Shown here piece after piece: positions 32,051 to 54,538 of a DNA stretch of 64,000 nucleotides. The stretch covers positions 2,294,001 through 2,358,000 of the forward strand of contig NZ_CP101456.1 in the NCBI RefSeq assembly GCF_024362485.1, in the 5' to 3' direction. Below the pieces are notes generated by a model. It was not told where the DNA came from. It searched no databases and saw only the letters and a program-made list of their open reading frames with translations. The stretch comes from Natronobeatus ordinarius (GTDB taxonomy: Archaea; Halobacteriota; Halobacteria; Halobacteriales; Natrialbaceae). Each line of letters begins with the position of its first letter. Positions within the stretch are counted from its first letter, which is position 1. The position numbers and the translations under genes were made by a program.

Positions 32051-33814
32051 TCAGTTCGAGAACATCGAGCCGAGCTGGTCACGCCACGCCTGGATCTCGT
32101 CGACGTCCTCGCGGACCGCCTCGAGGTCTTCTTCGAGGTCGTCGACCGACTCTTCGAGGTCGTCGACCGACTCTTCGAGGTCGTCGACCGTCTCATCGAC
32201 GGATTCGAGATCGTCGACGGCCTCGTCGAGTTCCGAGGTGACGGACAGCAGGTCCTCGTCGACGTCGTCGAGTCGTTCGTCGGTTGCTTCGAGATCGGAC
32301 ACAACGGCGTCGACGCTCGAGTCGAGTTCGTCGACGCGTCCGTCGACGGTCTCGACGTTCGACTCGGTCGCATCGAGTCGGCCGGCCATCGACTCGAGGT
32401 CGTCCTCGAACGACGCCAGTTCGGCTTTGAACTCCTGGATGAGCTGCTCGCCAGTCCCGTTCTCGTCGAGGAACTCCTCGAGTGCGGCGGTGTACGCCGT
32501 GACTTCTTCGACGCGCGACTGGAGGTGGTCGACCTTTGCGACCTCGCTCGGCTTCGGCTCGAGATCGAGAGCCGAGCGAAGGACGTCGAGGTCGTCGTCC
32601 TCGAGCGTCCCCTCTCGGAGTTCGGTGGCGAGTCGAGCACCGACGGAGTCGAGCGTCGCGACAGGTGCTGGTTCGTCAGCCTCGACGGAGACGTCGGTCT
32701 CGGTTTGGGTGGGCTCCTCGTCAGCGTCGTCCTCGTCCGACTCCTCAGCCAGGGCGTCATCGTCGTCGACGGCTTCATCCTCTTCGTCCGTCTCTTCGAC
32801 ATCGTCGACGACCTTGTCTGCCTCGTCTTCAGCGTCTTCGTCCGTCTCTTCGACGTTCTCGTCCGTCTCTTCGACGTTCTCGTCCGTGTCCTCGACGTCG
32901 TCGACTACTTCGGCGTCTTCGGCGTCTTCGTCCTCGATGGCCTCGGCTTCGTCCTCGTCCGTTTCTTCGACCGCCTCCTCGAGTTCAGACGTTGTACTGT
33001 CGGCTGCTTCGTCGTCTTCGCCATCGCCGTCGCCTTCGTCGTCGAGGTCGAGTTCGAGGTCGCCGTCTTCGTCGTCTGCACTGTCCGCCTGGTCGACGGC
33101 TTCCGCCGCAGCCTCGAGGTCGAGTTCGATCGCCGGGCCTTCGTCGTCCTCGTCGTCGGTGTCGGGAAGTTCGTCCTCGCCAAATCCGAGCTCGATGTCC
33201 GGCACGTCGTCGTCTGTAGCGTCAGGGTCGGTCACGTCGACCTCGTCGAGATCGACGTCACCGAGGTCCAGGTCGAGCTCGAGATCGCCATCCTCGTCGT
33301 CCTCATCGTCTTCGAGTCCGGGTACGGCGTCGGAGTCGCCGGAGATCATGTCCTTGACGACCTGGTTTCGATCGTCCGAGACGATGTCGTCGATCGTCGC
33401 ATCGTCGACCGCTTCACTGTCCGACTCAGATGCGACCGACGAGACGTCTGTGCGGACGTCCTGGATCGTCGGTTCGACCAGGAACGCTGCGGCTTCGTCC
33501 TCGTCGTCGATACGGATGCCGTAGACGGTGACGAGCGATTCGTCCGGTTCGATCGTCCCGGCGAACTCGACGTGGTTGTCCTGGAAGGCCGTCCACGCGT
33601 CGCTGTGGTACTCGGGATGGAACCCGACGTTGTCCATCGGGAACGACTCCGGGATCGGTTCGACCATCCGGAACGAGACCTCGCTGTCGTGTGTCGACTC
33701 GATCTCGAACCGGATTGCTGGAACAGGAAACTCATCGGGTGTGAACGACTTCCGGATCGTCAACCCGTCAGCGCTCACTTCGATGACGTCGTCCGTACTG
33801 GCGGTGCTGCTCAT
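32051..33814 (-). CDS. Acidic coiled-coil protein with N-terminal globular domain
   Basis: A 587-residue protein in three parts. Residues ~1-120 are a globular beta-rich domain (VIEVSADGLTIRKSFTPDEF, PAIRFEIESTHDSEVSFRMV). Residues ~150-390 are a long, almost purely acidic low-complexity stretch. Residues ~400-570 form a continuous coiled coil with heptads such as VDDLEESVDDLEESVDDLEE, ending WRDQLGSMFSN. Adjacent 21-base near-repeats encode the heptads (32129-32191) and an ENVEETD pair (~32,840-32,885). The architecture suggests a filament- or scaffold-forming protein; no function is known to me. It precedes the HisG-like gene on the same strand. Confidence 0.7.
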   Translation of the reverse strand: MSSTASTDDVIEVSADGLTIRKSFTPDEFPVPAIRFEIESTHDSEVSFRMVEPIPESFPMDNVGFHPEYHSDAWTAFQDNHVEFAGTIEPDESLVTVYGIRIDDEDEAAAFLVEPTIQDVRTDVSSVASESDSEAVDDATIDDIVSDDRNQVVKDMISGDSDAVPGLEDDEDDEDGDLELDLDLGDVDLDEVDVTDPDATDDDVPDIELGFGEDELPDTDDEDDEGPAIELDLEAAAEAVDQADSADDEDGDLELDLDDEGDGDGEDDEAADSTTSELEEAVEETDEDEAEAIEDEDAEDAEVVDDVEDTDENVEETDENVEETDEDAEDEADKVVDDVEETDEEDEAVDDDDALAEESDEDDADEEPTQTETDVSVEADEPAPVATLDSVGARLATELREGTLEDDDLDVLRSALDLEPKPSEVAKVDHLQSRVEEVTAYTAALEEFLDENGTGEQLIQEFKAELASFEDDLESMAGRLDATESNVETVDGRVDELDSSVDAVVSDLEATDERLDDVDEDLLSVTSELDEAVDDLESVDETVDDLEESVDDLEESVDDLEEDLEAVREDVDEIQAWRDQLGSMFSN

Positions 33815-51624: not shown

Positions 51625-52517
51625 CCGACTCGGTACAGGCCTACCTCGAGAGCAAGCGCACCGTCGACGACCGCGCGCTGAATCGGCGGGTCTGGTCGCG
51701 CTTGGCCGACGAGCTCGCCGCGTGTGCACGTGGCCAGGATCAGCCCGTCCGAATCGTCGAAGTCGGCGCCGGAATCGGGGCGATGGTCGCTCGCCTCGCG
51801 GCGTGGGATGCGCTTCCGCCATGCGTCTCCTACCGCGCGGTCGACGTCGACGCCGGGAGCATCGCGTTCGCGAAGGCGAACCTCCCGACGTGGCTCGAGT
51901 CGGCGGGTTACGCCGTCGAACGGACGGCAGACGGGCTCGTCGCGCGTCGGGACGATCGATGCCTGCTCGAGGTCACACTCGAGACGGCGGACGCCTTCTC
52001 CATCGCTGACGAGGCCGATGCCGTGATCGCTGCGGCGTTTCTCGACGTGGTCGACCTCGAGCGCGCGCTGACGACGCTTCCGGAGCTCGCCCGGGACGGT
52101 GGCGTCCTGTACGCCCCGATCACGTTCGACGGCGGAACGGCCTTTTCGCCGGTCGATCCGCTCGACGAGACGATCGAACGACTGTATCACCGCCACATGG
52201 ACGAGCTCCGGGACCAGCCGGGGAGCAGCCGGGCGGGCCGTCGGCTGATGACGCGGCTGCCGGCACACGGCCACGACGTGCTCGCCGCCGGCGGGGCCGA
52301 CTGGCTCGTCAGCCCCCACGACTCGGGCTATCCGGCCGACGAAGCGGCGTTTCTGAGACACCTGCTCGAGACGATCGACGGCGCGCTCACAGACTACTCG
52401 AGCGAGGCGCTCGAGCCGGCGGCTCGCGAGCGGTGGGTCGAGCGACGACGCCGGGAACTCGAGCGGGGCGAATTCGTCCTCGTGGCTCACCACCTCGACG
52501 TGCTCGCTCGCGTGTGA
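51621..52517 (+). CDS. SAM-dependent methyltransferase
   Basis: A 298-residue class I methyltransferase. Motif I is IVEVGAGIGAMVARLAAW, followed by the acidic residue of motif II in YRAVDVDAGSIAFAKANLP; later segments VLYAPITFDGGTAFSPVD and EFVLVAHHLDVLARV fit the fold. The acceptor is unknown. The GTG start overlaps the glycosyltransferase stop by four bases, so the two proteins are coupled. Together with the PTPS-like, MDR and CDP-alcohol genes it suggests a glycosylated, methylated metabolite or lipid. Confidence 0.9.
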   Translation: MTDSVQAYLESKRTVDDRALNRRVWSRLADELAACARGQDQPVRIVEVGAGIGAMVARLAAWDALPPCVSYRAVDVDAGSIAFAKANLPTWLESAGYAVERTADGLVARRDDRCLLEVTLETADAFSIADEADAVIAAAFLDVVDLERALTTLPELARDGGVLYAPITFDGGTAFSPVDPLDETIERLYHRHMDELRDQPGSSRAGRRLMTRLPAHGHDVLAAGGADWLVSPHDSGYPADEAAFLRHLLETIDGALTDYSSEALEPAARERWVERRRRELERGEFVLVAHHLDVLARV

Positions 52518-52572
52518 CCGGTTTGGCCCGTGTGTGGCGGGCCATTAACTCACATCGGGCCGAACCCCCGGT

Positions 52573-53349
52573 ATGGAGGCCGTCCTGCTCCCGGCCGTCC
52601 TCGCTGGCTGTCTGGCCGCCGTCCACCTCGTGGCCGACCGGATTCCGCTCGAGACGTCGCCACGCAGTCGGTGGCTGTCGGCCGCCGGCGGGGTCGCCGT
52701 CGCGTACGTGTTCGTTCACCTCCTGCCCGACGTCGGCGAGGCCGCCCGGACGGTCGTCGAGACGGTCGCCGTTCCGGTGACGCTCCTCGAGCGACACGTC
52801 TACCTGCTCGCGCTGGTCGGCTTCGTCGCTTTCTACGGCCTCGAACGGTACGCGACTGCCCCCCGGAACGGTGGGAACGTCGCGAGTCGGACTCGAGCGG
52901 CTGGCGACGGTGTGGCGAGCCGAACCGGGACCGACGAACGCGGCGACGAGCGCCTGCAGTTCCGGATCCACGTGGGCTCGTTCGCCGCCTACAACGGGCT
53001 CATCGGCTACCTCCTGGTCGACGCCGAGGGATCAACTGCTGGGCTCGTGCTCTACGCGGTCGCGATGGGCCTCCACATGCTGAGCAACGACTACGGGCTC
53101 CGTGCCCAGTACGAGCTCGCGTACCACCGAACCGGCCGCTGGCTGCTCGCGGGAGCCGTCCTCGCCGGAGCGGCGGTCGGCCTTCTGCTCGAGATTCACG
53201 AGGCCGCGGTCGCCCTGCTACTCGCGTTTCTCGCCGGGGGGATCGTGCTCAACGTGATCAAAGAAGAGCTTCCCGAGGAACGCGAGAGTCGGTTCGGAGC
53301 GTTCGCCGTCGGTGCCGGCGGCTACGCGGCGCTGTTGCTCGTCGTCTGA
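52573..53349 (+). CDS. ZIP-like membrane protein
   Basis: A 258-residue protein with seven or so transmembrane helices. The second helix VAVAYVFVHLLPDVGE has the His and acidic end seen in ZIP transporters, and the segment LYAVAMGLHMLSNDYGLR also resembles metal-binding helix regions. A charged Arg/Gly-rich loop (~98-130) sits in the middle, as in ZIP proteins. It is compatible with divalent-metal transport but lacks the full ZIP H-x3-E pattern, so the assignment is moderate. It begins 55 bases after the methyltransferase stop and is probably the last gene of the cluster. Confidence 0.6.
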   Translation: MEAVLLPAVLAGCLAAVHLVADRIPLETSPRSRWLSAAGGVAVAYVFVHLLPDVGEAARTVVETVAVPVTLLERHVYLLALVGFVAFYGLERYATAPRNGGNVASRTRAAGDGVASRTGTDERGDERLQFRIHVGSFAAYNGLIGYLLVDAEGSTAGLVLYAVAMGLHMLSNDYGLRAQYELAYHRTGRWLLAGAVLAGAAVGLLLEIHEAAVALLLAFLAGGIVLNVIKEELPEERESRFGAFAVGAGGYAALLLVV

Positions 53350-53394
53350 TTGAAACGCCGGCTGCGGGCGCCATGCACGCAGTCACTCCGGACA

Positions 53395-53647
53395 CTCGCC
53401 TCGCTTCGCTCGGCGAGACGACGAAAACTCGCTTCGCTCGTTTTCGAGCTCTGGCCTCTCGTTACTCGGCCAGAACGTCGGAACGCTCGCACAGCTCGCG
53501 TTCCGGGCACTTGCCTCGCGTTACTCGGCAAGACGACGAAAACTCGCTTCGCTCGTTTTCGAGCCCTGGCTTCGTTTCACTCAGCCAGGACGTCGGAACG
53601 CTCGCACAGCTCGCGTTCCGGGCACTTGCCTCGTTTCACTCGGCAAG
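53395..53647. repeat. Array of nine regularly spaced hairpins (115-base tandem unit)
   Basis: Nine inverted repeats of 23-25 bases start at 53395, 53422, 53451, 53480, 53510, 53537, 53566, 53595 and 53625, i.e. every 27-30 bases. They fall into four types in fixed order, so the real period is 115 bases, present 2.2 times: CTCGCC/CTTGCC stems; CGAAAACTCG...CGTTTTCG; CTGGCC or CTGGCT stems; GGAACGCTCG...GCGTTCC. The central loops are very alike (CTCGCTTCGCTCG or TCGTTTCACTCG). The last hairpin contains the stop codon of rpl11 (minus strand). There are no cas genes and no unique spacers. Confidence 0.85.
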
Positions 53648-54112
53648 TACGTCGTCGTACTCGCCGTCGTCGACTTTCGCCTTGAACTCGCGAGCGTCGA
53701 CGCCCTCGATGGTGACGCCCATCGAGGCGCAGGTGCCGACGACCTCTTTCGCGGCGTTTTTATTGTCGTACGCGAGCAGGTCGGGTTTCTTCTGCTCGGC
53801 GATCTTCTTCACCTGGTCGATCGAGAGGTCGGCGACGAAGTCCTTCTGTGGCTCGCCGCTTCCCGTCTCGAAGCCGGCTTCGTCTTTGACAAGTGCCGCC
53901 GTCGGTGGGACGCCGACTTCGATCTCGTAGGTGCCGTCGTCCTCGTAGTCGATCGTGACGGGCACTTCCGTGCCGTCGAACGCCGCAGTCTGCTCGTTAA
54001 TCTCGTTGACGACCGCCTGTACGTCGACGGGCGTCGGTCCGAGCTCGGGACCGAGCGGCGGGCCAGGGTTGGCCTGGCCACCCGGAACGAGCACTTCGAT
54101 GGTTCCAGCCAT
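53636..54112 (-). CDS. rpl11: 50S ribosomal protein L11
   Basis: A 158-residue large-subunit protein at the GTPase-associated centre. MAGTIEVLVPGGQANPGPPL followed by GPELGPTPVDVQAVVNEIN is the L11 signature, and the C-terminal rRNA-binding domain includes KKIAEQKKPDL and VGTCASMGVTIEG. The ATG at 54112 follows 20 codons of open frame that are not family-like. Its last codons and stop lie inside the terminal hairpin of the repeat array (CTTGCCTCGTTTCACTCGGCAAG), so the array directly abuts this gene's end. Confidence 0.97.
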   Translation of the reverse strand: MAGTIEVLVPGGQANPGPPLGPELGPTPVDVQAVVNEINEQTAAFDGTEVPVTIDYEDDGTYEIEVGVPPTAALVKDEAGFETGSGEPQKDFVADLSIDQVKKIAEQKKPDLLAYDNKNAAKEVVGTCASMGVTIEGVDAREFKAKVDDGEYDDVLAE

Positions 54113-54229
54113 ATCCGAACGAACCCGCGCACGAGTTTTAAGGGTTGCTTTTTCGGCTAGTCGCCGCGTCACGGACTGACGTGGACGATTCGGCGCCGGT
54201 GTTCGTCCCGCTGGCGCGAGAATCTCCCG

Positions 54230-54538
54230 TTACTCGGCGTCGACGACGTCCGCACACCACGTCGCGTACGACTCGAGGACGTGATCCTCGTCGAACCGTT
54301 CGATGCAGGGGACGTCGTGTGGGTGCAGTTCCTGGATGCGGTCGACCAGGTCGTCGTAGGCCTCGTCGGTCGTCTTCGCGAGCAAGAGTGCTTCCTCGTC
54401 GCGGTGGATCTCGCCGTCCCACCGGTAGGTCGACCTGATCGGCAGGTGGTTGACGCAGGCGACGAGGCGCTCCTCGAGCAGCGTTTCGACGAGCTCGTCG
54501 GCCGCCGGCAGCGGGACGGTGATGTAGACGGTGGGCAT
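54230..54538 (-). CDS. cutA: Divalent-cation tolerance protein CutA
   Basis: A 102-residue protein of the CutA1 family, known as a trimer implicated in copper tolerance. Family sequence is clear: MPTVYITVPLPAADELVETL, ERLVACVNHLPIRSTYRWDG, and ALLLAKTTDEAYDDLVDRIQ with HPHDVPCIERF. The start MPTVYITVP was chosen because the open frame upstream is Arg/Ala-rich. It is upstream of rpl11 on the same strand with a 117-base gap. Confidence 0.95.
   Translation of the reverse strand: MPTVYITVPLPAADELVETLLEERLVACVNHLPIRSTYRWDGEIHRDEEALLLAKTTDEAYDDLVDRIQELHPHDVPCIERFDEDHVLESYATWCADVVDAE

Follow-up and report, generated by a model that had tools for sequence, protein, structure and literature searches.

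A nine-hairpin array with a shared GA tip at the 3′ end of rpl11 in Natronobeatus ordinarius and its relatives in other haloarchaea

Introduction

The rpl11 gene of the haloarchaeon Natronobeatus ordinarius faces a convergent neighbor across a gap occupied by nine hairpins. Do these hairpins belong to the gene that they overlap, to its transcript, or to a wider family of elements? An initial annotation of the window (the whole 64,000-nt stretch of contig NZ_CP101456.1 analyzed here, to which positions refer unless another locus is named) considered a composite bidirectional terminator, an RNA-stability array, a protein-binding platform, and a repeat family grown by duplication of the rpl11 end. 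Here, we describe the anatomy of the array, its relatives in other haloarchaeal genomes, and the readings that these allow.

Results

Nine Hairpins in a 115-nt Repeat

All nine hairpins of the initial annotation were recovered within 53394–53648 by a search for perfect hairpins that did not presuppose a GA tip (Table 1). Every loop is exactly 11 nt long, the stems measure 6–8 bp, and the linkers 3–4 nt. Across 340 kb of the chromosome, such hairpins (11-nt loop, perfect stem of at least 6 bp) have a background density of ~0.21 per 255 nt, compared with nine in the array, and the runner-up 255-nt stretch holds only three. Folding of both strands, which had been proposed as a check, gave z-scores of −4.5 to −6.6, whether the strands were treated as RNA or as DNA. 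The recurrence of four hairpin types with an exact 115-base period also held: two copies of the unit, A and B, align without gaps at 88% identity. A third copy ends already at ~53647 and contributes its first hairpin only. The previously described ~29-base spacing is real, and this pitch belongs to the whole hairpin class, being 28–33 nt elsewhere in haloarchaea.

Coding of a repeat protein by the array is excluded, as a period of 115 nt does not divide into whole codons. A CRISPR array is excluded as well: the hairpins differ from one another, the linkers are only a few nucleotides long, and identical repeats with unique spacers are absent. A covariance-model search of 52500–54500 against Rfam gave no match up to E = 1. 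Elsewhere in the window, two 21-nt tandem repeats (32130–32199 and 32838–32898; ~3 copies each, 95% matches) lie in codon phase and are possibly coding.

The array reaches into rpl11 itself. The stop codon occupies 53636–53638 on the minus strand, and the 5′ arm of the last hairpin encodes the final L11 residues (CTT GCC GAG TGA AACGAGGCAAG). The initial annotation was right about this overlap but had placed the stop codon in the last stem, whereas it sits in the loop. The flanking genes do converge, as stated there; the identity of rpl11 is certain, and that of the ZIP-like gene is weak. The type 1 hairpin of each unit draws on the rpl11 end, with arms CTTGCC/GGCAAG that in the far copy read CTCGCC/GGCGAG.

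Table 1. Coordinates of the hairpin array and its flanking genes
Feature	Position	Strand	Evidence or remark
ZIP-like membrane protein, convergent with rpl11	52573..53349	+	weak PF02535, 23.4 bits, below cut-off 35.1
115-nt unit copy B, four hairpins	53387..53501	-	repeat search and TRF; 88% identical to copy A
Type 1 hairpin CTCGCC-GAGCGAAGCGA-GGCGAG	53395..53417	-	
Type 2 hairpin CGAAAAC-GAGCGAAGCGA-GTTTTCG	53422..53446	-	TTTT 53441-53444 (+), 53424-53427 (-)
Type 3 hairpin TCTGGCC-GAGTAACGAGA-GGCCAGA	53450..53474	-	
Type 4 hairpin CGGAACGC-GAGCTGTGCGA-GCGTTCCG	53479..53505	-	
115-nt unit copy A, four hairpins	53502..53616	-	repeat search and TRF
Type 1 hairpin CTTGCC-GAGTAACGCGA-GGCAAG	53510..53532	-	
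Type 2 hairpin CGAAAAC-GAGCGAAGCGA-GTTTTCG	53537..53561	-	TTTT 53556-53559 (+), 53539-53542 (-)
Type 3 hairpin CCTGGCT-GAGTGAAACGA-AGCCAGG	53565..53589	-	
Type 4 hairpin CGGAACGC-GAGCTGTGCGA-GCGTTCCG	53594..53620	-	
Partial third unit, one hairpin overlapping rpl11 end	53617..53648	-	
Type 1 hairpin ACTTGCC-GAGTGAAACGA-GGCAAGT	53624..53648	-	rpl11 stop TGA in loop
rpl11, ribosomal protein L11	53636..54112	-	PF00298, PF03946; identity certain

Loops Framed by GA

The hairpins were already known to share a loop core. The loop is indeed common to them, but it is better written on the minus strand, as GA, seven bases, and GA. On this strand, which is that of rpl11, the loops read GAGCGAAGCGA (three hairpins), GAGTGAAACGA (two), GAGCTGTGCGA (two), GAGTAACGCGA (one), and GAGTAACGAGA (one), and all nine hairpins have the layout stem-GA-core-GA-stem. 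The seven core bases can mostly be written as two base pairs and a triloop, so that the stem is predicted to extend beyond a tandem G·A mismatch and to end in a mini-hairpin. In this 5′-Y-GA-R-3′ setting, the two G·A pairs would be expected to be sheared.

In the strict sense of a GNA or GNNA loop closed by two or more G-C pairs, the mini-hairpin tip is present in three of the nine hairpins, in each as an exact GC-GAA-GC; two further ones have a GAA loop with one T-A inner pair, and four have other triloops. GNA triloops therefore occur in just 5/9 hairpins of the window, compared with 25 of the 36 GA-hairpins in the unbiased stretches. The core is nearly identical when read in either direction, and a reversed-pattern control is hence uninformative. 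The GCGAAGC family of mini-hairpins so defined is extraordinarily stable in DNA, GCGAAGC itself having a Tm of 78°C (PMC4686876).

A Hairpin Class of Haloarchaea

A covariance model built from the nine window hairpins was searched against genomes. In N. ordinarius, ~16 additional sites were found at E < 0.05. The spread is order-wide: at E ≤ 0.01, matches are present in at least 130 of 146 haloarchaeal genomes, and in 116 of the 122 good ones, with up to 38 matches per genome; as only a few candidates were scored, these are minimum values. An Rfam search of 18 match loci returned tRNAs only.

Tandem mismatches in intergenic DNA were also ranked, using stretches from five genomes (1.14 Mb in total), of which the first includes the window and those of G080 and G070 were chosen near known matches (among the sample labels, G072 denotes Halobacterium sp. 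TGN-42-S1 and g28 denotes Halorussus). GA/GA is the leading class, with 25 cases, 6 of them from the window array; any other class reaches at most one case per genome.

Members of the class cluster on one strand. Of the further GA hairpins located up to 250 nt from 99 non-redundant matches, 92 share the strand of the match and 11 do not. Center-to-center spacings of GA-hairpins peak at 28–33 nt and again near 61 and 93 nt, and di-hairpin units of ~61 nt occur in tandem. A close match to the window array in format comes from Halobacterium (L135:1756–2055), in which ten consecutive modules with two alternating stem types, spaced by 32, 29, 30, 29, 32, 29, 33, 31, and 32 nt, lie between divergent genes. 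Dispersed multi-copy families with identical stems are found in several genera.

Such families, together with the tandem di-hairpin units, would also be expected of a selfish REP- or BIME-like repeat, spread by a transposase that recognizes the mismatched hairpin as bacterial REP-associated tyrosine transposases do. REP recognition features a mismatch that is kept in a variable stem, and the retained G·A resembles this. However, the presence of IS200/Y1 transposases does not track the hairpins: one genome has 10 Y1 genes and no hairpin match (G060), another no Y1 gene and 22 matches (G026), and N. ordinarius has a single Y1 gene. These numbers give no sign that the hairpins depend on a Y1 transposase. 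Nor is the 115-nt unit dispersed in its own genome. We consider a selfish repeat of this kind rather unlikely.

Viral carriage was rejected too. The 17-mer GACGAGCGAAGCGAGTC occurs in 26 viral contigs, where the stems around it are mostly 3–5 bp long and near chance. A stem of at least 5 bp flanks this 17-mer in 33 of 47 haloarchaeal cases versus 7 of 36 outside haloarchaea, by our own taxon split.

The rpl11 Locus in Relatives

We found no 115-nt unit elsewhere in the N. ordinarius genome and no 115-nt array behind rpl11 at any of 29 other loci; many of these loci have a short T tract near the rpl11 stop codon. Three loci of other genera (L070, L087, and L090) carry GA hairpins of their own behind rpl11, all in the sense orientation, and no GA hairpin was found within rpl11 itself at the relatives' loci. 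The hairpin at L090 (CGAAAATC...GATTTTCG) has a T4 stem comparable to CGAAAAC...GTTTTCG of the window. At L070, as in the window, the arm 3′ of the rpl11 stop codon repeats the coding end in inverted form.

The proposal of a repeat family grown by duplicating the rpl11 end is therefore borne out in part: the type 1 hairpins use that end and the unit is confined to this locus, but the array also contains hairpins unrelated to rpl11, and the tip is common across haloarchaea. A similar division applies to random placement in relatives, which the initial annotation had named as an observation against its readings. The 115-base unit is absent elsewhere, whereas hairpins of the class occur widely, for the most part between genes and in many cases next to tRNA 3′ ends.

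Placement beside tRNA Genes and Stop Codons

A tRNA gene lies within 500 nt of 29 of the 99 matches. The 27 tRNA-linked hairpins with a clear orientation are always on the 3′ side of the tRNA, 15 in sense and 12 in antisense, although many of these matches share ancestry and are not independent. A tRNA variable arm or intron as their source was rejected: the hairpins sit downstream of complete tRNAs. Several hairpins begin at a stop codon or within 6 nt of it and are mostly sense; some lie between divergent genes, the Halobacterium array included (gene calls are those of our codon-usage caller and approximate). There is no genome-wide excess at stop codons of perfect hairpins of any kind, and the phenomenon is thus specific to the tip class and not a feature of gene ends in general.

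Two further arrangements were seen near tRNAs. Behind many haloarchaeal tRNA genes of several tRNA species and genera, an inverted T-arm is followed by a GA-tip hairpin and another T-arm, to which the 3′ end of the tRNA is often added (L057, L054, L048, L050, L011, L019, and L023); at L057 the pattern is repeated in tandem. At G000:C1:478789–479034 (L006 and L010), two related GA-tip palindromes stand in tandem between copies of the tRNA-Arg acceptor end, downstream of that tRNA.

Compensated Stems and a Retained Mismatch

Stem pairing is preserved through sequence change. The nine window hairpins alone have two-sided changes at 8/9 pairs. Copies A and B differ at 14 positions (6 in stems, 7 in loops, 1 in a linker), and all 6 stem differences combine into 3 compensated pairs; hairpin types 2 and 4 are unchanged. 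When the window and Halobacterium arrays are aligned, 7/7 pairs vary on both sides, 99% of cells are paired, and the covariation score is reached by 0 of 500 shuffles. The only invariant columns are the two GA, which the finder demanded of the Halobacterium rows and not of the window rows. In most comparisons beyond the window GA/GA is imposed by the finder, and the assumption-free observations are the window array and the mismatch ranking.

Perfect arms do not by themselves imply selection, since arm-to-arm copying may keep them perfect. In a purely mutational account, stable GCGAAGC mini-hairpins would lead to fold-back priming and template switching, writing palindromes that have no function. 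Arms that copy the adjacent gene end (rpl11 in the window and at L070, the T-arm behind tRNAs), loop inversions with quick gain or loss (see below), and a tip of the d(GCGAAGC) class all fit this account. Copying could also give compensation on its own, but it should then repair the G·A as well, and the mismatch is never repaired while inner pairs and stems change with compensation. This suggests selection on the tip, and we regard the mutational account as improbable.

DNA-Level or RNA-Level Tip

We sorted the perfect intergenic hairpins of the five-genome stretches by their tips, with dinucleotide shuffles giving the expected numbers. In this modest census, GNA tips were observed 29 times versus 7.7 expected (3.8-fold) and GNYA 12 versus 4.1, compared with 7 versus 4.4 for GNRA and 0 versus 3.0 for UNCG; the remaining tips were ~1.5-fold over expectation. 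The excess tracks loops that are stable in DNA rather than classic tetraloops of RNA. In Halorussus, the loop at one orthologous site stands in opposite orientations in different species on an unchanged stem, and hairpins are absent in most species of the genus; such inversion and fast turnover point to events at the level of DNA. Both strands also fold well as RNA, which counts against a DNA-level reading. Given the tip preference, the RNA-stability array of the initial annotation appears less likely.

A Possible Terminator

T4 tracts lie +91/+206 and +93/+208 nt from the two stop codons, on opposite strands and all within hairpin stems. The two type 2 stems supply the sole T4 tracts of the gap, and downstream of either stop no T5C-like tract was found, T4 only. 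T4 tracts this close (within 100 nt) accompany just 13% of convergent stops, which makes a terminator role a reasonable proposal, and the array may end both the rpl11 and the ZIP-like transcripts. T4, as opposed to T5, is a weak terminator tract, and the tracts of the two strands arise as one palindromic event. In Haloferax volcanii, T5C gave 95% termination in vivo and one hairpin near 3′ ends gave 59%; haloarchaea terminate transcription mainly at a bare T tract (PMC7237163). The class resembles these terminators in its T tracts near stops and in that a hairpin can contribute, but the GA tip is not among the motifs reported for them and only some copies of the class have T tracts (PMC7237163).

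If the hairpins act as RNA, they could form a bidirectional terminator and an exonuclease barrier in both transcripts, the tip and the tandem G·A being recognized at the level of RNA. The convergent genes with their T4 on both strands are in keeping with this, as are the sense orientation of 9/9 hairpins relative to rpl11 and of those behind rpl11 at the three other loci, the mostly sense hairpins starting at or close to stop codons, the activity of the H. volcanii hairpin, and Halorussus copies that combine T5-6 tracts on both strands with such hairpins near a stop. UNCG tips are absent and GNRA tips at background, however, the Halobacterium array sits in a divergent gap, tRNA-linked hairpins are nearly as often antisense as sense, and a bare T tract is the chief terminator of these organisms. 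An RNA-level 3′-end element is a minority reading, though the best placed of the rivals. The narrower proposal of a composite bidirectional terminator is plausible at this locus, with T4 on both strands and a T4-stem GA hairpin behind rpl11 at L090, but it does not hold in general, as a closely similar array lies between divergent genes in Halobacterium.

A dispersed element resembling a bidirectional terminator was seen in Halorussus (L242–L255 and L191–L195). It reads T5-6, CGAGGAG-GGTG-CCGCAG, a hairpin tip that varies freely, CGAGG-CACCCGACGA, and A5-6, and lies a few nucleotides from the stop codon of one of two usually convergent genes.

Discussion

We propose, with confidence evenly divided between yes and no, that the array represents a class of DNA-hairpin modules of haloarchaea that expanded locally in tandem. 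In a module, a 5–8 bp stem whose sequence is free leads into a tandem G·A (GA/GA), which is followed by two base pairs and, at the end, by a triloop, mostly GNA; a module spans ~25 nt, and all modules lie on one strand at a pitch of 28–33 nt. Wherever the DNA becomes single stranded (replication, a transcription bubble, negative supercoiling), a module could snap into a very stable mini-hairpin. The first module, of type 1, was probably built onto the rpl11 end, with the last codons serving as its 5′ arm, and slippage or template switching between hairpins may then have enlarged the array by duplicating a four-module, 115-nt block. The GA·GA tip would be kept by selection for a recognized or very stable shape. 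In its present place, the array would separate two convergent transcription units, its palindromic AAAA/TTTT stems placing T4 on both strands.

A bolder proposal, which we offer tentatively and consider clearly less probable, is that haloarchaea share a recognition element, so far undescribed and spread over the whole order, in the form of a hairpin that is read by its shape (tandem G·A and a small triloop) and not by its sequence, single behind tRNA and protein genes, in arrays at ~30 bp pitch, with a dedicated binding protein or mobilizing enzyme to be found.

Our literature search, outside which most subscription papers lay, gave no description of the GA-tip hairpin class or of the array, and the class is apparently undescribed and unnamed. 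A motif with a free stem and a fixed non-canonical tip in most haloarchaeal genomes would be a counterpart of bacterial REP elements and would link repeats in genomes with a DNA shape that has been known mostly in vitro. It is relevant to the way in which haloarchaea keep transcripts and converging genes separate, and it provides natural arrays for telling fold-back mutation from selection on structure.

The exact 25-mer GATCCTTCGCTTCGCTCAGGATGAC, a dispersed bacterial hairpin for which the same search gave no description, occurs in 24 IMG/VR contigs (L382–L405). Written as GATCCT-TCGCTTCGCTC-AGGATGAC, it has the identical 11-nt loop of the window array and a 5–6 bp stem, but the bacterial stem is fixed. 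The same loop on this stem suggests that the tip may be favored more widely. The d(GCGAAGC) DNA mini-hairpins of Hirao and colleagues (PMC4686876) share the GC-GAA-GC tip with three of the nine window hairpins, and GNA dominates in the haloarchaeal class; they are known as an in vitro structure and aptamer tool, whereas here a tandem G·A and a variable stem enclose the tip, which recurs across genomes. PATEs and SMRs of Haloquadratum walsbyi (PMC3119063) are likewise palindrome-bearing, transposase-free repeats of a haloarchaeon, but PATEs have near-terminal palindromes related to IS605 ends, none of which were seen here. REP, BIME, and REPIN elements (PMC3116915, PMC2817692) are similar in that they are short and palindromic, have stems that covary while unpaired bases are retained, and lie mostly between genes, often in regularly spaced clusters; the hairpin class, too, combines short palindromes, covarying stems, and clusters. 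BIMEs are described as alternating, whereas the haloarchaeal modules run head to tail on one strand, share the tip and not the stem, and do not track a Y1 transposase. By analogy, the class would work most like REP elements, from which it differs in its orientation rule and in the part that is conserved.
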